Part shown: one piece after another, positions 1 to 19,490 of the stretch | Layout of the letters: every line of letters starts with the position of its first letter | Numbering within the stretch: the first letter of the stretch is position 1 | Assembly (NCBI GenBank): GCA_024277615.1 | Contig: JAJRUW010000067.1 | Coordinates: forward strand, 1 to 64,000 | Direction of reading: 5' to 3' | Source: Fidelibacterota bacterium | Lineage (GTDB): Bacteria > Fidelibacterota > Marinisomatia > SCGC-AAA003-L08 > JACNLC01 | Length of the DNA: 64,000 bases | Notes under the pieces: generated by a model | What the model was told of the DNA's origin: nothing | Seen by the model: only the letters and a program-made list of their open reading frames with translations | Databases searched by the model: none | Program-made: the position numbers and the translations under genes

Positions 1-130
1 CAGGTTTTTTCTCCCCCTGCCAAGGGGGAGATGCCCGCAGGGCAGAGGGGGTCCGGAATCCTCACACCCACAGCCGAGGCTGTGGGTTACTGCTCTCTTT
101 GCCTTTTCCCGCGCTTCAGCGTGGGCTTCG

Positions 131-345
131 GTGCACTCCAAAGCATCCAGCGTAACCCACGGATTTATCTGTGGGAAAGACGAAAAGAAGATATGCCATA
201 ACCGTTTTAACGGTTTGTAATTGAGGGAATGTAAAAACCATTGAAATGGTTAGCAGGGAGCAGGAGCACCAGCATCCCACGATTGAAATCGTGGGTTACC
301 GTGTGTTCAAAAGGGGGAGATGCCCGCAGGGCGCAGGGGGTCCGG
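131..345 (+). repeat. Long direct repeat, copy A
   Basis: About 215 bases beginning GTGCACTCCA and ending GGGGGTCCGG recur almost unchanged at 454-669, a period of roughly 323 bases. The copy contains four successive palindromes. Differences from copy B are a few substitutions and one-base indels, for example TTATCTGTGGG against TTATCCGTGGG, where the change restores or breaks a stem pair. Confidence 0.85.
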
Positions 346-453
346 GTAGCAAGATAAAAGTTAAAAGTGCCTGCCTAACAGCCTGCTGGTTGGCGGGCGT
401 GATTCGAGCGTATTTTCAATCAGCCCCCTGCACCCCTGCCTGCGGGCGGGTCG

Positions 454-669
454 GTGCACTCCAAGATCATCCAGCGTAACCCACGGATTTATCCGTGGGA
501 AAGACGAAAAGAAGATATGCCATAACCGTTTTAACGGTTTGTAATTGCAGGAATGTAGAAACCATTGAAATGGTTAGCAGGGAGCAGGAGCACCAGCATC
601 CCACGATTGAAATCGTGGGTTACCGTGTGTTCAAAAGGGGGAGATGCCCGAAGGCAGAGGGGGTCCGGA
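454..669 (+). repeat. Long direct repeat, copy B
   Basis: This is the second copy of the unit at 131-345, with the same order of palindromes. Its stems are slightly more perfect (CCCACGGAT/ATCCGTGGG). The sequence between the copies (346-453) is not duplicated. After this copy the array ends and about 150 bases of featureless sequence lead to the methyltransferase gene. Confidence 0.85.
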
Positions 670-820
670 ACGGCCGTAAAGCCTGAAATTAAATGTATCA
701 ATTATGTAGAAACCATGATCCGTAATTATTATTGTGCGGGATTTAACATTGGACCCCTTCCCATCCGCAAGGCTCAAGGATTTAGCTCTCCCATGTCTGT
801 GACTCATATTAAATTAATAG

Positions 821-1984
821 GTGGTAAAAGACACCAAATATAGAATAATCAACATCTCCTTTCAGCCTGAAGACAGCCGCCGGCTCCATCAGCTGATAGA
901 AACTGTGAATACCAGCATCGCCCCTGAAGATCTTTATCTCAAGATTGAAGCTGATACACTGAATGTCCATCTGAATAAACTTGATCTCGAAAAATTCAGA
1001 GGGATCATCGCGCCCGACAGTGAGGAATTCCTGCAGATGATCATTGCTGAAATTGAGGCCATCCGCAGTTATGGTATCAAAGGGAAGAAACGTATTTATG
1101 TTGATTATAACAAAGAAAGAAAAGTTCGCAACCGCAAAGCCAAAGAGGAAAACCGCGGCAAATATTACTATGCGCGTGGCAGCAGTTTTTCAAAAGAGAA
1201 CCGGAAACTCCCGGTAGCCTTTCTGGATCAGATTTTCTGCGGTGACAGTCTTGAAATTCTGCAACAGCTTCCTAATAACTGCATTGATCTGGTGTTCACT
1301 TCCCCCCCCTACAATTTCGGGCTGGCCTATCATGAACAGCAGGATGAGCATTTCTGGGAAAAATATTTCCAAAAGTTGTTCGCCATCTTCAGGGAATGTG
1401 TTCGTGTCCTGAAATTCGGCGGACGGATCATTGTGAACATTCAGCCTTTATTTTCCGATTATATTCCCACTCATCATATGATCAGCCAGTTCTTTATCGA
1501 TGAAAAAATGATCTGGAAAGGAGAGATTCTGTGGGAAAAAAATAATTATAACTGTAAATATACGGCTTGGGGAAGCTGGAAAAGTCCGGCCAGCCCCTAT
1601 CTGAAATATACTTGGGAATTTCTGGAAATTTTCTGCAAAGGTGAATTAAAAAAGCCCGGCGGCTGGGAAAATATCGATATCACAGACGAAGAATTTAAAG
1701 CCTGGGTAGTGGCAAGATGGTCAATCGCACCAGAGCGAAAAATGAAGGAGTTGGGGCATCCGGCCATGTTCCCGGAAGAACTCGTGCGCCGTGTGTTGAA
1801 ACTATTCAGCTATCGGAATGATGTCATTCTTGATCCCTTCAACGGGGTGGGCACAACCACGGTAGTAGCCCGGACACTGGAGCGTCGTTACCTCGGCATA
1901 GATATTTCCGAAAAATATTGTGCCGTCGCCCGGGAACGACTCAAAGCGGCCGGGCAGGGCGAGTTCCCTCCAAAAAGCGAATGA
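821..1984 (+). CDS. Site-specific DNA methyltransferase, beta class (TSPPY type), orphan
   Basis: The 387-residue protein is an S-adenosylmethionine-dependent amino-methyltransferase (N4-cytosine or N6-adenine). The catalytic motif IV TSPPYNFGLAY is at about residues 160-170 and the SAM-binding motif I DPFNGVGTT lies near the C-terminus (about 338-346). This IV-before-I order is the beta class. Residues 1-130 are a charged extension I do not recognise. The start is GTG at 821, directly after an in-frame TAG, with no good ribosome site, so the true start could be internal. No restriction endonuclease gene is next to it; the gene on the other side is a convergent transporter. It is therefore probably a solitary methylase or the remnant of a restriction-modification system, and its position beside the palindrome array suggests acquired DNA. 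Confidence 0.85.
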   Translation: MVKDTKYRIINISFQPEDSRRLHQLIETVNTSIAPEDLYLKIEADTLNVHLNKLDLEKFRGIIAPDSEEFLQMIIAEIEAIRSYGIKGKKRIYVDYNKERKVRNRKAKEENRGKYYYARGSSFSKENRKLPVAFLDQIFCGDSLEILQQLPNNCIDLVFTSPPYNFGLAYHEQQDEHFWEKYFQKLFAIFRECVRVLKFGGRIIVNIQPLFSDYIPTHHMISQFFIDEKMIWKGEILWEKNNYNCKYTAWGSWKSPASPYLKYTWEFLEIFCKGELKKPGGWENIDITDEEFKAWVVARWSIAPERKMKELGHPAMFPEELVRRVLKLFSYRNDVILDPFNGVGTTTVVARTLERRYLGIDISEKYCAVARERLKAAGQGEFPPKSE

Positions 1985-6133: not shown

Positions 6134-8608
6134 TCACTCCCCAATGTGCAAAATGATATTCACGATGAGAATGATATCCTGAATATTCACCTCCCCGTCG
6201 GTATTAACATCTGCCACGAGCAGCATTTCTTCGGAAGGTTCCGTATTTCCCAGAATAATATTGATCACGAGGATAACATCCATGACATTAATGATCTCAT
6301 CCTGATTCACATCACCCGGTTCAATCCAGTAAAAGTTATCCAGTGTAAAATCCCAGATCCCTCTGCCGTAAGTGCCAAAGCGGGCTGTGGCGATTTGCGG
6401 GATATAATCAACCGACCAGTAGGTTTGATCCGGAGCCGATATCCCTGCCAAATCATACCAGATCCCATCATCCGGCACATAGCCGTAAGGGCCTACTTCA
6501 GTGGCGGCAAACAAAATGCTTTCGTCTTCTGTGGCAGCCAGCTCGAAAACCAGCGTACCGGGCAGGCCCTCCACAATGGGCGTAAAGCTGGTCCCGTTAT
6601 CTTCACTGACATAAACAGCGGGATTGGAATATCCGCTTCCGCCGATATAGACCGTACCCAGCTGCGTGGCTGAGGGATGTATGGTGGAACCATAAAAATA
6701 ATGCGACTCCGGACCGCTGAATCCGCTTGATAACTGCCATTCTCCGCCATAGTCCTGGCTGGTATAGAACTGACCTTCTGTAGTGAGCGCATACCAGTAA
6801 GCCTGGTCAATGGGTGAGATGGCCATGGCGGAAACAGTCCCGGCAAAATTAAAAGGCTGCTGCTGATAGGCAATATTCCCTGCGGATGCTTCCAGTCTGA
6901 TAATGTGATTCCCCCCGAAGCCGCCACCGGCGAGATAAGCAACCTCGGGATCAAAAGGATCCGCCATGAGGGGTGGCAGCCAGAGATAGTCCGAGCCTGC
7001 AAAATCCCAGGTCAGACCGTTCGAGCCGGAGGTCGCATTTGGGTAGTACAGTACAAAGCCCGGATAATCACACCAGATGCTGGAGCCGTCATTCCCGGAT
7101 ACGAGGTGTCCGTAATCCCCGCTGATCACCTGCTCGAAATCCAGTATGCCGCCCTGGTCGTCCTGATTACGCTGGTAACCCTGATCCTGTGCCCCGGCAT
7201 AAACATGATAGGGTTCAAAGCGTGTGGTGTAAGTGGAATAGTACTGACTGACTCCCAGGCCGTCCAGTGACAAATTGTTGACCGACTGCAGATAATCGTA
7301 AGATTCATAAAGGCCCCCATCAGTACTCACATATCCTACTTCATTGCCTGCCGAGGTGATGAAAAAGCGTACTTCCGGAATATCGGCATGGAGCCGGTTT
7401 GATTCCTGCCCGTAATATTCCCACCAATTATTGACGATCTGCCAGGTCACTCCGTAATCACTGCTCTTATAGAGTTCCACACCGGCAATGAAGACATACT
7501 GCGGGTTTATATTTGAACAGTTGAAGCTGTTATTCATAAATGTATTTGTCGGAGCCGTACTCTGCCATTGCCAGACATGTCCTGCATTCGGTGAATAGAA
7601 AATATCATTAGCGACCCGGGCATACAGAAAGGGAGTATTGCCATTCATGCCGCCGATGAGCAGGTTGTCGCCTGAGTTGGCCGTGGGAATAGTGCCCACA
7701 GGAAAGATGATATCGTCTTCACCGATGAGGTAAATTTCATTATCATTCTGCAGATATACTCCGGTGTCAGCATAGCGTGCGGTCCAGATGTCAAAGCTGC
7801 CGGACATGTTTTCCGTAAGAATTGCAACAGTCTGAAAGCTCTCGCCCTGATCGGTGGACTTTCGCAGGACTGATATCTGCTGCCAGGCAGCATAATCCCA
7901 TTCGGTGGACAGCAGGTAAATTGTATGCAAGTCATCATTCCTGACGACCACGCGCTGTGTCCAGCCCCAGTTTTGCAGATTGTCCAGTCCGGTGGCTTCT
8001 TGTATGGTAAAACCTTCATCATCGCTGTAATAGAAATGTTGTCCCTGTGTGCCGATGAGAAGTCTGGACGCTGTAGCCGTACTGATAAACCTTAGCAGAC
8101 TGATTCCCTTGATCTGGTAATAATCCGTGAGAGATTCCCAATTGTCACCATCGAGAGTGCCCCGCCAGATATTCCCACCGGATGAAGCACAGTAGAGCAG
8201 ACCGTTTTCATGATCTACAGCAGTAGTCAGCATACGTCCCGACTGATTGTTACTGCCCCGTTCGGACCAGACACCTTCGATATTCCGGTTGCCAAAACTT
8301 ACCTGACTTGGTTGCTCCATAGCCGAGTCATGGCTGTTTGCCCAGAGTTGACGCAGATATGTTTTTTGAAGCCATTTCTGTCGCCGTGTTTCAGCATCTA
8401 ATTTGTGCCAGTCGGTACCGGGGGCAGTTTTGTGCAGACGGTCGATGTACTCCTGCCGCTGCCTTTTAAACTCCTGCCGTTCCCTGTCCTGGAGAACAAT
8501 TTCTGTGGGTGCCGGCGGTATGGCGGGTTTTTTCAAGGCCTGCCTTATGCCGTAAGCACCGAGCAACAGTAATAAGGTTATTCCCGATAGCAGCAATTTA
8601 TTATTCAT
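6134..8608 (-). CDS. Secreted beta-propeller (BNR/VPS10-like) protein with C-terminal dockerin
   Basis: The 824-residue protein begins with a hydrophobic export segment (about residues 5-23), then a charged helical stretch (about 40-90), then a long region with repeated short motifs of the 'SxDxGxTW' kind (YYSDDEGFTI, RKSTDQGESF, YKSSDYGVTW, YTSQDYGGEW, YVSEDNGTSF). These are Asp-box type blades of a sialidase/sortilin-like beta-propeller. The last about 60 residues form two dockerin-type calcium loops, GDVNQDEIINVMD and ADVNTDGEVNIQD. The start ATG has an AGGAG site. It is likely exported and attached through the dockerin; catalytic activity is not evident. Its monocistronic location gives no further clue. 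Confidence 0.85.
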   Translation of the reverse strand: MNNKLLLSGITLLLLLGAYGIRQALKKPAIPPAPTEIVLQDRERQEFKRQRQEYIDRLHKTAPGTDWHKLDAETRRQKWLQKTYLRQLWANSHDSAMEQPSQVSFGNRNIEGVWSERGSNNQSGRMLTTAVDHENGLLYCASSGGNIWRGTLDGDNWESLTDYYQIKGISLLRFISTATASRLLIGTQGQHFYYSDDEGFTIQEATGLDNLQNWGWTQRVVVRNDDLHTIYLLSTEWDYAAWQQISVLRKSTDQGESFQTVAILTENMSGSFDIWTARYADTGVYLQNDNEIYLIGEDDIIFPVGTIPTANSGDNLLIGGMNGNTPFLYARVANDIFYSPNAGHVWQWQSTAPTNTFMNNSFNCSNINPQYVFIAGVELYKSSDYGVTWQIVNNWWEYYGQESNRLHADIPEVRFFITSAGNEVGYVSTDGGLYESYDYLQSVNNLSLDGLGVSQYYSTYTTRFEPYHVYAGAQDQGYQRNQDDQGGILDFEQVISGDYGHLVSGNDGSSIWCDYPGFVLYYPNATSGSNGLTWDFAGSDYLWLPPLMADPFDPEVAYLAGGGFGGNHIIRLEASAGNIAYQQQPFNFAGTVSAMAISPIDQAYWYALTTEGQFYTSQDYGGEWQLSSGFSGPESHYFYGSTIHPSATQLGTVYIGGSGYSNPAVYVSEDNGTSFTPIVEGLPGTLVFELAATEDESILFAATEVGPYGYVPDDGIWYDLAGISAPDQTYWSVDYIPQIATARFGTYGRGIWDFTLDNFYWIEPGDVNQDEIINVMDVILVINIILGNTEPSEEMLLVADVNTDGEVNIQDIILIVNIILHIGE

Positions 8609-12179: not shown

Positions 12180-12677
12180 ATGGATTACAGTATCAAGCTC
12201 TTCGTGACCGGAGGAACATTTGATAAAGAATACAACGAACTGAATGGCAACTTGTTCTTTAAAAACACACATGTCTCTGAAATGTTGAAGCTGGGCCGGT
12301 CCCTGCTGGATATTCATGTAGAGACCCTGATGATGCAGGACAGCCTGCACATGAGCGAAAGTCAGAGAAATTATATTCTCCAACGTTGTGCGGAAGAAAA
12401 AAGTTCAAAGATCGTGATAACACACGGAACGGATACTTTGACCGACACGGCTGCTCTGCTGGGGAAAAATATGCGGAAAAAAACTATTGTACTCACCGGC
12501 GCCATGGTTCCCTATTGTTTTTCCAGCTCCGACGGATTCTTTAACCTTGGCAGTGCACTCTCTTTTGTTCAGGTTCTTCCGTCCGGTGTGTATGTGGCCA
12601 TGAACGGTCAGTATTTCAGTTGGGACAATGTCAGGAAAAATCGCCGACAGGGTATCTTTGAGCAGGTCATATCATGA
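12180..12677 (+). CDS. Single-domain L-asparaginase-like protein
   Basis: The 165-residue protein matches only the N-terminal domain of type I/II asparaginases. The first catalytic loop (FVTGGTFDK) and the second (THGTDTLTDTA), which carry the two nucleophile-triad Thr residues, are both present, as is the VLTGAM strand. Full-length enzymes are about 330 residues and have a second domain. The ORF ends cleanly with a stop inside the next gene's start (ATGA overlap), so this looks like the known short asparaginase-domain subfamily and not a truncation. The start has a GAGGT site. Amidohydrolase activity on asparagine or a related amide is likely but unproven. Confidence 0.82.
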   Translation: MDYSIKLFVTGGTFDKEYNELNGNLFFKNTHVSEMLKLGRSLLDIHVETLMMQDSLHMSESQRNYILQRCAEEKSSKIVITHGTDTLTDTAALLGKNMRKKTIVLTGAMVPYCFSSSDGFFNLGSALSFVQVLPSGVYVAMNGQYFSWDNVRKNRRQGIFEQVIS

Positions 12678-13612: not shown

Positions 13613-16606
13613 TCAGATCCCAGTGGAATCTTCCTCATCCATTTTTTCTGCCTCAGGCCGACGCGGCCGGTAAATGATCCCCTTCCCCGACAAACCGTCC
13701 ATCTGAACAACCAGAGGCTCCCGTAGTTTGATCCAGGCCAGATACTCGGTTTCTTCGGTTTTGGGCTGTCTGCTTAACCATTCCAGATCCAGTTTATCAA
13801 GTCGGCCTTTATGACTGACGGTAAAATACCCGATGCGCATACTGGTCACATTCTGGAAAAAATGGCTTCCGAATGAAGGGTCCACCTCGAACTCGGCGAG
13901 TCCCATTTCGATCATTACTTTTACATTTGAAATCTGATTCCAAACCACCGGAATACCCAACCACGGATCGGCTGAACCCCAGCGGCCGGGGCCAATCAGA
14001 ATATAGGGCTGCCCGGCACCCAGGCGGTTGTTAAATTTCTCCAGTTCCCGGGCCATCTCTGTGGTTTTTGAAGCATCGAATACTTCAGGCTTGACGTATA
14101 AAATATGTCTCAGTCCTTCAATTTTACCATTCCCCAGGCAGACACTGGTGCGGCAGAAAATATCTTCTTCGTCAATGCCGTCGAGCTCTTCACTCTGCTC
14201 AATGCTGCTCACAGGCAGCGGTTTGATCTGCAGCAGACAGAATTCAGGGAGACGTTTGCGGTCTTTGAAAACATTCACGGCAAATTCGATCTCTACCGGG
14301 CAGCCCAGCGATGCGGCTCCCAGTTCCAGGATCTCATTCAGAATGTCGGCCAGGGGGAACAGGTTATATTTCAGAAAAGGTGCGAATGTAATGACCCTGA
14401 CACCCTCACAACTGAGCGAATCCCGCAGAACATTGTCCTGAGCTGATATGACACTTGCGGCATATTTCAGGATGCCGTCTTTTTCAGCAGCCTCAAGAGG
14501 GAATTTTGTGAGATTGTCCGGGTCTTTATCGGAGAGGGTCGTCAATTCAGAACCCAGCGTCAGGGCGTAAAAATTATTTTGTGAATTCTGCAGGGTCGAT
14601 TTAATGGAATAATACTGCGGCAGGATGGTGGGGTATTTCGGGGAGATCCTCAGGGATTTTTCACCGTCAACTATGGTTTTACCGAATCCCAGAGCAAGAT
14701 AGGCGACGCCCTCATCCCGGCGCATATAAGAAACCGGGTAATAATTATAACTCTGGGCAACACCGCTCATTACCGGGTAAAACCGGTCCCCAAAGCGCTG
14801 TCCTACCATCTCCTGAATGATCACCGCCATTTTTTCGGATTCAAAGCGGTGCCGGGAAGCAGCGATTACGGATTTTGAACTGTGATAAAACATGGAGGCA
14901 AAAACTCTCTTGACCGCTTCGCAAAGCTGGCTCAAGCGGAGACTGCGATCTGCAGCAGTATTCTGCAACATGTAGGTTGAATAGGCTCCTGCCAGGGGAT
15001 TGTACTGGGCATCTTCCAACAGGCTGGAGGAGCGTACAGCCAGCGGCCCCTTCATCTTGGACAAAATGAATTTCAACCGGTCGATCAATTGATCGGACAA
15101 AGCACTTTTGAGAAACAAATTAGTGATAACCTCCGAATCGATCAGAGATACCATGGGGTCCCAGAGCCGGTTAACTTCCATAAAATGATCGAATTCATCC
15201 GTGCCGATTACCATGACCCGGGGGATGCGAATGGTGACCTCGGGGAATTTTTCTTTTAATTCCGCTTGTTGCAGCATGGCATTTGCAAATGCCAGCCCCC
15301 TGGCTTTGCCACCCAGTGACCCGGGACTAATGCGTAAAAAATTTACCGTGTCAAAATTCACATCATCCGAAAAATTGGTGATACGCCCCATGGTGGCCTG
15401 ATGCATCATGCTTTCGATCTCGTGGATGAGAAAAGACCGCAGGTCATCCGTGGAACCGAAATCGGTGATTTGCAGGTGATGCAGTTTGGTGGCTATTGAA
15501 AACTCACCCCGGGCGGCCAGCCAGTTTGAAAAGTGATTACGGGAGGCGTGGAAGTTTAAAGTTTCATCGGGTACACGGCCCAGCAAATTGATGAGTTCTA
15601 CGGGGTTTTGGGCGATGCCCACAATTTCTCCCGAAGGGACTCTGAAAATGAAGTCACCGAAGCCGAAGTTATTGAGAATAAATTCCCGCAGCTGCTGGAG
15701 CATCCGCACCGAACCCTTATGCAGAAAACCAACTGAGGCCTCTTTTGCAAGGATTGAATTTGCAGAATCCGTTGACTGCAGCATCACCGGAATATGCGGT
15801 TCTCGCTTACGGGCCCATTTGGCGAATTCAATCCCGGCCCTTTCCCCCAATATTCCGTTTTTAGGGAAACGTATATCCGAAATGATCCCGAGAAGATTTT
15901 CATGATATTTTGAAAAATAGTATCTGGCTTCTTCAAAAGTCGTGGCCAGCAGAATTTTAGGCCGGCCGATCTTTTTCACTAGTACTCTGGACTCATCCAT
16001 CGTTTTGCTGATGAGCTTGCGGGTATGATACAGGATCTCTTTGTAGATCATGGGCAGTATCAGTGAATAATATTTGGGATTGTCTTCGATGAGAATGATG
16101 GCTCTCACATCCCCAATGCGTATATCCCGGCTCACATTTTGACGATCTTCCACAAATTTGATGATGGCCGGAAAAACATCCGCATTTCCCGAATAGATAA
16201 AAATGCGGTCGATGGTTTTTTTAGGGAGTTTCTCCGGAATTTGTTTTAATTCCGATTCATCAAACAGCAGCAGGATCACCGGTTTTTTAGGATACAGTTC
16301 TTTGATTTTCCCGCTGAAAGCAATAGGATTCATATCGGGAATCCTCAACATGACCAGGATCAGGTCAAATTTCCGATTGATGATCATATCAAGGGCCTGA
16401 GCGGCAGTGGAAGCCTGCCAGATCCGGGGGGCATTCCGCATCCGCATATCGAGATATTCCGTGATGATCTGCTCGGACAAACGACCATCCTCCTCCAGTA
16501 TAAAAGCATCGTAGGGACTGGCCACCAGCAGGATCTCATAGACCTTATGCAACATCAGCCGCATGTAGTCCGGCTCGGGAAGAGAAGCATTCTGAAATTC
16601 TATCAT
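13613..16606 (-). CDS. Receiver-receiver-PPDK_N (PEP/pyruvate-binding ATP-grasp) protein
   Basis: The 997-residue protein has an unusual order. Residues about 13-160 and 165-320 resemble two response-regulator receiver folds (YEILLVASP..FDLILVMLRIPDM; AIILIEDNP..GIISDIRFP). Residues about 430-950 match the N-terminal ATP-binding domain of pyruvate phosphate dikinase and PEP synthase (GGKARGLAFAN, AVRSSSLLEDAQ, LIGPGRWGS). The phosphohistidine swivel domain and the PEP/pyruvate TIM barrel are absent, so it cannot be a complete PEP synthase. Proteins of this size and architecture occur in FCB bacteria without a known role. It is divergent from the acetate genes, which may hint at a carbon-flux regulator. 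The ATG has no strong ribosome site. Confidence 0.8.
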   Translation of the reverse strand: MIEFQNASLPEPDYMRLMLHKVYEILLVASPYDAFILEEDGRLSEQIITEYLDMRMRNAPRIWQASTAAQALDMIINRKFDLILVMLRIPDMNPIAFSGKIKELYPKKPVILLLFDESELKQIPEKLPKKTIDRIFIYSGNADVFPAIIKFVEDRQNVSRDIRIGDVRAIILIEDNPKYYSLILPMIYKEILYHTRKLISKTMDESRVLVKKIGRPKILLATTFEEARYYFSKYHENLLGIISDIRFPKNGILGERAGIEFAKWARKREPHIPVMLQSTDSANSILAKEASVGFLHKGSVRMLQQLREFILNNFGFGDFIFRVPSGEIVGIAQNPVELINLLGRVPDETLNFHASRNHFSNWLAARGEFSIATKLHHLQITDFGSTDDLRSFLIHEIESMMHQATMGRITNFSDDVNFDTVNFLRISPGSLGGKARGLAFANAMLQQAELKEKFPEVTIRIPRVMVIGTDEFDHFMEVNRLWDPMVSLIDSEVITNLFLKSALSDQLIDRLKFILSKMKGPLAVRSSSLLEDAQYNPLAGAYSTYMLQNTAADRSLRLSQLCEAVKRVFASMFYHSSKSVIAASRHRFESEKMAVIIQEMVGQRFGDRFYPVMSGVAQSYNYYPVSYMRRDEGVAYLALGFGKTIVDGEKSLRISPKYPTILPQYYSIKSTLQNSQNNFYALTLGSELTTLSDKDPDNLTKFPLEAAEKDGILKYAASVISAQDNVLRDSLSCEGVRVITFAPFLKYNLFPLADILNEILELGAASLGCPVEIEFAVNVFKDRKRLPEFCLLQIKPLPVSSIEQSEELDGIDEEDIFCRTSVCLGNGKIEGLRHILYVKPEVFDASKTTEMARELEKFNNRLGAGQPYILIGPGRWGSADPWLGIPVVWNQISNVKVMIEMGLAEFEVDPSFGSHFFQNVTSMRIGYFTVSHKGRLDKLDLEWLSRQPKTEETEYLAWIKLREPLVVQMDGLSGKGIIYRPRRPEAEKMDEEDSTGI

Positions 16607-16962: not shown

Positions 16963-17538
16963 ATGTCAGAAAGAACAACGATTATAGATACAACGGCCAA
17001 TCCTGCTCCTCTCGGGCTCCTGGGGTTTGGGATGACGACGGTCCTGTTGAATTTGCACAACGCCGGATTTTTTGCATTGGGCAGCATGGTGCTGGCAATG
17101 GGCCTGTTCTATGGAGGTGTGGCGCAGATCCTCGCCGGTCTGTTGGAATGGAAAAAGGGGAATACTTTTGGTACTACGGCTTTTACCTCATACGGCCTGT
17201 TCTGGCTGACCCTGGTTTTTTTGATCATGATGCCCAAATGGGGCTGGATGGAACCGGATTCAAAGTCGGCGATGGTTGCTTACTTATTTATGTGGGGATT
17301 GTTTACATTTGTCATGTGGATAGCGACCCTAAAACACAATAAAGCCTTGCAGCTGGTATTTTTTTCACTATTTATTTTATTTTGGTTATTGGCCCTGGCG
17401 GATGCAACCGGGAGTTCCACGCTGAAGGTTATAGCAGGCTGGGAAGGAATTTTTTGCGGACTGTCAGCAGTGTATCTGGCGCTGGCCCAAGTTTTGAATG
17501 AAACCTATGACCGGGTGGTTTTGCCGCTTGGTGAATGA
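16963..17538 (+). CDS. satP: Acetate uptake transporter (GPR1/FUN34/YaaH family)
   Basis: The 191-residue inner-membrane protein has six spans and the family signature NPAPLGL at residues 13-19. Members such as E. coli SatP import acetate or succinate with protons. The ATG has an AGGAG site. The stop is 20 bases before the acetyl-CoA synthetase start, so uptake and activation of acetate are encoded together. The upstream region carries candidate operator repeats. Confidence 0.92.
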
Positions 17539-17558
17539 GTAACTACAGAAGGAGAAAA

Positions 17559-19490
17559 ATGGCTAAAATTTACAAAACGGATTACCTGGATGCAGCAAAA
17601 GCTCACATAAAAAATATGGATGATTACAGGTCCGTATATCAAAAATCAATTGAAGCACCCGAGGCTTTTTGGGGCAAACAGGCGGAGCGTCTGGAGTGGT
17701 TCAGAAAATGGGACCGCGTCTGCTCCAACAACCTTGAGAAGGGGGAAATAAAATGGTTTGAGGGCGGTAAGCTGAATGTATCCTATAACTGTCTTGACAG
17801 GCATGTGGAAGCCGGTTTCGGCGATCAGCAGGCGCTCATCTGGGAGGGCAATAATCCGGAAGAAGACAAAGCCTATACATACAGTGAATTGCTGGTGGAG
17901 GTCTCAAAATTTGCCAATGTTCTGAAAGCCTATGGTGTCAGCCGGGGTGATCGGGTTTGTCTGTACATGCAGATGATTCCGGAGCTGGCCATCGCCATGC
18001 TGGCCTGCGCGCGTATCGGCGCCGTCCATTCCATTGTCTTCGGTGCCTTTTCACCGGATTCTTTGCGGGATCGCATCAACGACTCGACCTGTAAAATTCT
18101 GGTTACGCAGGATACCGGTGTGCGGGGAACAAAGCAGAATATTCCCATGAAAACCAATGCCGATAAGGCTCTCGGTGAAGCCCCTTCGATTGAACATGTT
18201 TTCGTTGTGAAAAGAACGGGAGAAAAAGTCCCAATGTCTGATAAAGACCATTGGTGGCACGAAGCAATGGCCCGGGCTGCCGAAACCTGTGAACCCGAGA
18301 CTATGGATGCGGAAGACCCGCTTTTCATTTTATACACCTCAGGTTCGACGGGAAAGCCAAAAGGAGTTCTGCATACTACCGGTGGATATCTGGTGTACAC
18401 TTCGTACAGTCACGAGATAATTTTTGATTATCAGCCTGGGGATATCTACTGGTGTACCGCCGATATCGGCTGGATCACCGGGCATTCTTACATCATCTAC
18501 GGACCCCTGGCAAACCGGGCTGTCACCGTCATGTTTGAGGGGGTGCCTAATTATCCGGATTCCGGACGCTTCTGGCAGATTTGCGAGAAACATCAGATTA
18601 ACATTTTCTATACCGCTCCTACCGCTTTGCGGGCCCTCATGCGCATGGGAAATGATTTTGTGACGAAGTGGGACCGCTCATCCCTGAAACTGCTGGGAAC
18701 CGTGGGTGAGCCGATCAAAGAGCCGGAATGGAAATGGTATTATAATATCGTCGGTGAAGGCCGCTGCCCCATTGTTGATACCTGGTGGCAAACCGAGACA
18801 GGTGGCGTTTTGATTACACCGCTGCCTGCCGCCACACCGCTAAAACCAGGATCTGCCACCTTCCCGTTTTTCGGGGTGGAACCGGTAATCCTTTCACCGG
18901 AAGGAAAAGAGATTTCAGGCAATCCTGCCGAAGGACTCCTCGCTATAAAACAGGCCTGGCCGGGCGCTATGCGGACAATCTATGGTGATCACAAACGATT
19001 TATAGATACTTATTTCTCTCTGTATCCGGGGTACTATTTCACCGGTGACGGTGCCAGAAGAGATGAAGACGGTTACTATTGGATTACCGGCAGAGTTGAT
19101 GATGTATTGAATGTCTCAGGTCATCGTCTGGGGACTGCTGAGATAGAGGGTGCCATCGGAGCCTACCCCGCCGTAGCCGAAGCCGCCATCGTCGGTTTCC
19201 CGCATGATATCAAGGGGCAGGGCATTTATGCCTTTGTGACACTCATGGCCGGCGAAACCCCGAGTGATGAAATCTTGGCAGGTATCAAAGCCAAAGTAAG
19301 GGAACTCATCGGGCCGCATGCAACTCCGGACAAGTTGCAGTTTACACCAGCTCTGCCGAAGACCAGGTCCGGTAAGATCATGCGTCGTATTCTGCGCAAG
19401 ATCGGAGAGGGAGATGTCACCAATCTGGGTGATATATCGACCCTGGCAGACCCGACAGTGGTGGATGATCTGCTAAATGGAAGACAATAA
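17559..19490 (+). CDS. acs: Acetyl-CoA synthetase
   Basis: The 643-residue cytoplasmic enzyme activates acetate to acetyl-CoA through acetyl-AMP. The AMP-binding P-loop [11 protein letters not shown], the TWWQTETGG motif, the [17 protein letters not shown] hinge segment and the C-terminal [11 protein letters not shown] with the acetylatable Lys are all visible. An in-frame ATG exists 24 bases upstream, but the one at 17559 follows AAGGAGAAAA. It forms an operon with the acetate transporter and is followed by a terminator. The conserved C-terminal Lys suggests possible control by protein acetylation, a general property of the family. Confidence 0.96.

Follow-up and report, generated by a model that had tools for sequence, protein, structure and literature searches.

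To our knowledge, the characterised enzymes that combine a PPDK_N ATP-grasp domain with a phosphohistidine swivel all act on small molecules or glucans. In rifampin phosphotransferase (RPH), Lys22, Arg117 and Thr136 position ATP (PMC4844700). Receivers joined to PPDK are also on record: census papers class the pairing of REC with PPDK as 'Bacteroides-like' (PMC5847659) and describe Asp-less receivers as enriched with PPDK effectors (PMC4395418), so the architecture itself is already known. Two further papers place PPDK_N near SelO (PMC10364804) and describe an ordinary two-component system affecting transcription of glutamate dehydrogenase (GDH; PMC12918730). In the open-licence papers searched, we found no GDH link, function or hidden His domain for REC-PPDK.

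The window analysed here, a 64,000-nucleotide stretch of a Fidelibacterota contig (JAJRUW010000067.1), carries a gene of this kind on its minus strand (13613..16606; all parts given below lie on the same strand), as one open reading frame with an ATG start encoding 997 aa. The protein runs from two receivers through a DUF5752-like linker and a PPDK_N ATP-grasp domain to a swivel-like C-terminus. Pfam searches bore out the receiver-receiver-PPDK_N composition proposed in a first-pass annotation of the sequence, with PPDK_N at residues 430-811 (E 4e-39, 135 bits against a cut-off of 27) and Response_reg in two stretches (E 3e-8). The same annotation had noted the lack of a TIM barrel, and indeed no PEP/pyruvate-binding TIM-barrel family was matched in the protein, whose chain stops about 185 residues past PPDK_N. 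The linker (residues about 318-425, 15332..15655) matched DUF5752 just below threshold (8e-5, 22.5 bits against a cut-off of 23), with a better match, above the cut-off, in the relative L011 (30.0 bits). Comparison with the relative L002, whose protein is 94% identical, gave a dN of 0.033, a dS of 0.97 and a dN/dS of 0.034, and the gene is therefore real and under strong purifying selection. It is present as a single copy in its own genome (G000; 2.4 Mb in 103 contigs, 77% complete), which named relatives assign to the Marinimicrobia (FCB group), and an anti-phage library returned no match for its product. Residue conservation was counted in an alignment of 52 homologues (A1), from which an AlphaFold model was also built (mean pLDDT 84.8). 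Elsewhere in the window, a 165-aa frame at 12180-12677 (+) overlaps the next gene by a few bases and matches only the N-terminal asparaginase domain PF00710, as half an asparaginase standing alone, and an 824-aa secreted-looking protein (6134-8608, minus strand) ends in what, by eye, may be dockerin type I repeats.

The two receivers have different pockets. Receiver 1 (residues about 21-155, 16142..16546) matches the PorX receiver structurally (Z 13), but its phospho-Asp position is Met86 (codon 16349-16351), with M in 47/52 homologues, T in 4/52 and G in 1/52, which makes it an aspartate-less receiver (ALR). Its dN/dS of 0.006 is the lowest within the protein, and it is a conserved pseudo-receiver. 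Receiver 2 (residues about 166-317, 15656..16111), of which residues 167-317 match receiver folds with Z up to 15.9, has the Asp, acidic pair, Ser/Thr and Lys of a response regulator: E174 (52/52), D175 (47/52), D244 (48/52; codon 15875-15877), S278 (51/52) and K297 (52/52). The first-pass annotation had asked for a check of the phosphoacceptor Asp in each receiver, and only receiver 2 has it; as this receiver is intact, the absence of an Asp pocket from both, which would have made the folds purely structural, does not apply.

The PPDK_N part (14174..15319), an ATP-grasp domain as in PEP synthase and PPDK, aligns with Listeria RPH in a profile search. Arg117 and Thr136 of RPH correspond to R525 and T544 by profile alignment, and Lys22 to K434 by the GGK motif; all three are invariant (52/52 each), so that the RPH-type catalytic Lys, Arg and Thr are all present, and the domain also carries E774 and Q793. 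Receiver-bearing proteins such as this one form type A of three subfamilies; types B and C share its catalytic half, but no receiver was detected in them, and in an alignment mixing types A, B and C (A4) the Lys and Arg columns, together with that of the C-terminal His described below, are invariant.

No Pfam family matches the C-terminal 185 residues, which nevertheless contain two highly conserved stretches, GPGRWGS (872-878) and S-x-G-[ST]-H-F-F, in which His915 (codon 13862..13864) is found in 52/52 homologues and also in 5/5 type B and 5/5 type C sequences. Residues about 812-985 (13652..14173) are predicted to form a swivelling beta/beta/alpha domain, modelled alone at a pLDDT of 90.3. 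Its elements run as two strands, a helix, a strand, a short helix, a strand, a loop, the helix that His915 opens (108-115 of the domain model), a strand and final strands bearing a DG-x-x-G turn; this is presumably also the element order of the PPDK swivel. Structural comparison with VIA-align put phosphohistidine swivels in the top ranks, with RPH 757..867 at Z 6.7 (104 residues, 3.2 Å), PPDK 384..509 at Z 6.3 and enzyme I (EI; 2eza, 1zym) at about 5.2-5.5; the extra domain of pyruvate kinase was also near the top at Z 6.5-6.6. All Z values for the domain alone are below 8, and non-phosphohistidine domains of transferrin receptor, chaperonins and LD-carboxypeptidase, which share the same general swivelling fold, are near the top as well, with Z 4.5-6. 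Foldseek with the isolated domain returned nothing at E<1e-3, LD-carboxypeptidases leading. In the full model, residues 411..982 superpose on PEP synthase (PEPS) 2ols 4..467 across its ATP-grasp and swivel region (Z 25.8, 357 residues, 4.4 Å), compared with 276 residues on 5hv6, where the ATP domain alone is superposed.

Sequence profiles did not confirm this homology. The PEP-utilizers family PF00391 matched neither the window protein nor any of the 52 C-terminal domains, and hhalign of the C-terminal part against 12 PEP-utilizers swivels was not significant (P 0.015 for the whole, 0.009 for the trimmed core; 0.2-0.3 for a reversed control), with no gain when types B and C were added (P 0.018). 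A forced low-threshold alignment placed His915 on the catalytic His, which we rejected as evidence, and a PDB profile search with the domain gave chance matches only (best E 0.18). The case for a swivel is therefore structural and positional. When a model of the domain was searched against 40 genomes, 32/32 matches, in 32 genomes, fell within frames of this PPDK_N family, one of these frames being cut by a contig end. We regard the domain as a probable, though not proven, phosphocarrier, and the initial description of the protein as lacking a swivel is, on the predicted structure, probably wrong.

Neighbour clustering over 59 loci revealed one dominant partner, GDH. Among genomes of the same class, drawn from 60 relatives and excluding the window's own, full-length type A has GDH no more than 5 kb away in 25 of 37, always tail to tail and often 6-92 bases apart; being convergent, these adjacent genes are not co-transcribed. 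GDH is also within 3 kb of type A in 26/40 loci from other named genomes; by record title, these 26 include Ignavibacteria/Bacteroidetes, Cloacimonadota, KSB1, Bdellovibrionales, Desulfofustis, Acidobacteria and Armatimonadetes, and several of the remaining 14 loci are short contigs and three (L002-L004) belong to the window's own wider group. The genomes behind both counts are related, and the counts are thus not independent. As a control, acs and GDH were never within 5 kb of each other in 38 genomes with both. The linkage spans several phyla and all three subfamilies, with proximity kept while order and orientation vary. The subfamilies pair with GDH clades: in a set of loci that includes same-gene duplicates, the nearest GDH is of the archaeal type for all 13 type B and C copies, while for type A it is of the NADP type in 39, of the archaeal type in 6 and absent within 2.5 kb in 31 (two truncated copies split one and one). 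Since the gene usually lies beside GDH in related bacteria, it may control that enzyme, and we know of no dedicated post-translational GDH controller in these phyla. A presence/absence table scored by eye over 60 genomes (protein and GDH 46, protein only 1, GDH only 8, neither 5) agrees with the linkage, and was set aside as evidence because both the completeness of the genomes and their kinship confound it. In family f6, GDH is retained in five reduced genomes that do not have the protein. Neighbour cluster c20 was rejected as a gene, as it consists of antisense frames of GDH; such long open frames opposite GDH, up to 572 aa (L016, L027, L034), are an annotation trap.

The window's own lineage is arranged differently. 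Here the gene is divergent, as first reported, from an acetate uptake transporter (16963..17538, plus strand; NCBIfam NF038013, above cut-off) and an acetate-CoA ligase (acs; 17535..19490, plus strand; TIGR02188). It stands head to head with acs in 10 genomes including its own, 161-1910 bases apart. In the nine acs-linked relatives it is not near GDH, which is located elsewhere in the genome, and three genomes (G002, G057, G058) have neither acs nor GDH beside it. GDH is not adjacent to the gene in the window's own family; none was found in the 77%-complete own genome, and a congener (G001) has one. The suggestion that acetate, PEP and pyruvate flux is relevant to this protein thus stands as far as the acs linkage of this lineage goes, but not for most relatives and other phyla, where the partner is GDH.

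Types B and C differ from type A in what surrounds the shared catalytic half. Type B is shorter, and in 8/9 genomes it points the same way as GDH, with 0.7 kb between the ends of the two matches. At L092 a carbamoyl-phosphate synthase large subunit follows type B, and in L092-L097, from family f4 of the same order, frames for GDH, the PPDK_N-His protein and a carB-like protein stand in a row in the same direction, an apparent nitrogen operon. Type C (L009:3200-6361, L008, L020, L021 and L041) opens with a sensor-like module, continues with PPDK_N and the same His domain, and ends in a nucleotidyltransferase that bears a GS...DxD signature; it too is found next to GDH, of the archaeal type, which suggests that one arm of this control works by nucleotidylation. 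In L009-like loci, PPDK_N-His proteins and GDHs alternate, three of each. Among the Bacteroidales, relatives 1538-1577 aa long (L129:8263-12936, L133:4358-8971, L132:1146-5876) carry repeated sensor-like modules of ~130 aa N-terminal to the receivers, without a Pfam name; L129 has four copies, and the modules match the type C N-terminus (E 1e-27 to 7e-11). With receivers and N-terminal sensor-like modules, the family is one of signalling proteins.

Taken together, these data are consistent with a receiver-controlled, dikinase-type phosphotransferase that passes phosphate from ATP to His915 and regulates GDH (or Acs) in trans, a reading to which, taken whole, we give about an even chance; the first-pass proposal of a signal-controlled phosphotransferase remains the best description. 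As happens in PPDK, PEPS and RPH, PPDK_N would bind ATP and use it to phosphorylate the swivel-like domain, here on His915. Judged from the conserved residues and the predicted fold, phosphorylation of His915 is reasonably probable. Transfer would be gated by receiver 2, phosphorylated on Asp244 by some kinase, together with pseudo-receiver 1, a role that we infer for receiver 2 from its conserved pocket. The charged swivel would then act in trans on an enzyme of nitrogen or carbon entry and control its activity, the target being most likely GDH for the family as a whole, whereas in the lineage of the window it may be acetyl-CoA synthetase. Gene linkage makes GDH a likely regulated partner across the family, and a less likely one in the window's lineage; that GDH itself accepts the phosphate is a more doubtful, tentative proposal, although gene context makes it the best candidate.

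Asp244 and His915 lie in one chain, which also accommodates an intramolecular relay, in which ATP charges His915 and the phosphate moves on to Asp244 (or the reverse), yielding a self-switching response regulator that binds GDH without phosphorylating it. In keeping with this, neighbour clustering revealed no kinase gene recurring beside the gene, and D244N occurs in only 4 copies (L006, L010, L029, L030), each the second gene of a Cloacimonadota tandem pair beside an intact copy. In the Bacteroidales locus L129, a single gene separates a long intact copy from a short one whose receiver 2 is degraded (D175 and K297 changed). As losses occur only where a second copy could supply it, the Asp pocket of receiver 2 looks selected. 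However, the receiver-dead copies retain every ATP-site residue and His915, so that the His serves a purpose even where the Asp is lost; in types B and C, moreover, the catalytic half is kept and no receiver was detected. We consider a relay improbable.

Alternatively, the protein could be a metabolic enzyme like RPH, PEPS or the prodigiosin ligase, with a small molecule as phosphate acceptor, bound either by its receiver/DUF5752 half or by its partner GDH. The substrates of its characterised counterparts would fit, and PigC and PEPS are its best partial NCBIfam matches, both far under cut-off. Against this, no acceptor-binding domain of the PEPS or RPH kind was detected, and the receivers, the sensor-like repeats and the nucleotidyltransferase all belong to signalling, which makes such an enzyme rather unlikely.

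It could also be that no phosphate is transferred, PPDK_N only sensing ATP/ADP in an allosteric GDH partner. In favour of this, the C-terminal domain has diverged so far that its homology to phosphohistidine domains is unproven at the sequence level. This is hard to square with the full conservation of K434, R525, T544 and His915, with the presence of that His in all three subfamilies and with the invariant columns of A4, and we think it equally improbable. Least credible of all is the half-enzyme of the first-pass annotation, phosphorylating a separate His-swivel protein: the failure of PEP-utilizers to match the protein speaks for it, but a swivel-like domain with an invariant His is very likely fused in the same chain, and the only PF00391 match in the 77%-complete own genome lies in a 919-aa, PPDK-length frame, so that a separate His protein is not supported and no free-standing one was found there.

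We return to the receiver-controlled phosphotransferase. GDH is a meeting point of carbon and nitrogen metabolism, and a dikinase that is gated by receivers and brings its own phosphohistidine carrier would, if true, let two-component signals act straight on a metabolic enzyme, bypassing transcription. It would also offer a testable function for the REC-PPDK output, listed without one in the census papers. In its broadest and most speculative form, which we hold to be unlikely as a whole, dedicated GDH regulators of this kind may form a class that is widespread and so far undescribed, having put the chemistry of PEP synthase to use in controlling a protein: an ATP-charged His-swivel would covalently phosphorylate GDH, gated by receivers in type A, sensor-like modules in types A and C and a fused nucleotidyltransferase in type C, with subfamilies matched to GDH clades and one lineage redirected to acetyl-CoA synthetase.

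The census proteins likewise join a PPDK domain to one or more receivers, including an Asp-less one, and, matched by description rather than accession, very probably belong to the same family; the passages available give no function, C-terminal His domain, second intact receiver or GDH link (PMC5847659, PMC4395418). Four things appear new: that the protein probably has its own His carrier, that its receivers divide their roles, that there are three subfamilies, and that they pair with GDH. RPH (PMC4844700; 5hv1, 5fbu) has an ATP-grasp domain first and a His swivel last, an order that the 997-aa protein shares on its predicted structure, with Lys22/Arg117/Thr136/His825 as counterparts of K434/R525/T544/H915. 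Unlike RPH, our protein has no rifampin-binding domain, its C-terminal domain following PPDK_N directly, and it carries N-terminal receivers and a DUF5752-like part, with a swivel unrecognisable by sequence. PEP synthase and PPDK (2ols, 1dik) are similar in that a swivel, or here a swivel-like domain, directly follows the ATP-grasp domain, with a similar relative placement in the predicted model, and differ in their PEP/pyruvate TIM barrel and GG-x-T-S-H signature, both missing here. Finally, the N-terminal half of PTS enzyme I (2eza, 1zym) differs in using PEP, rather than an ATP-grasp domain, as donor and in its HPr-binding helical domain, which was not detected in the 997-aa protein, but offers a parallel for what we propose here, a swivelling phosphohistidine domain with a protein as acceptor.
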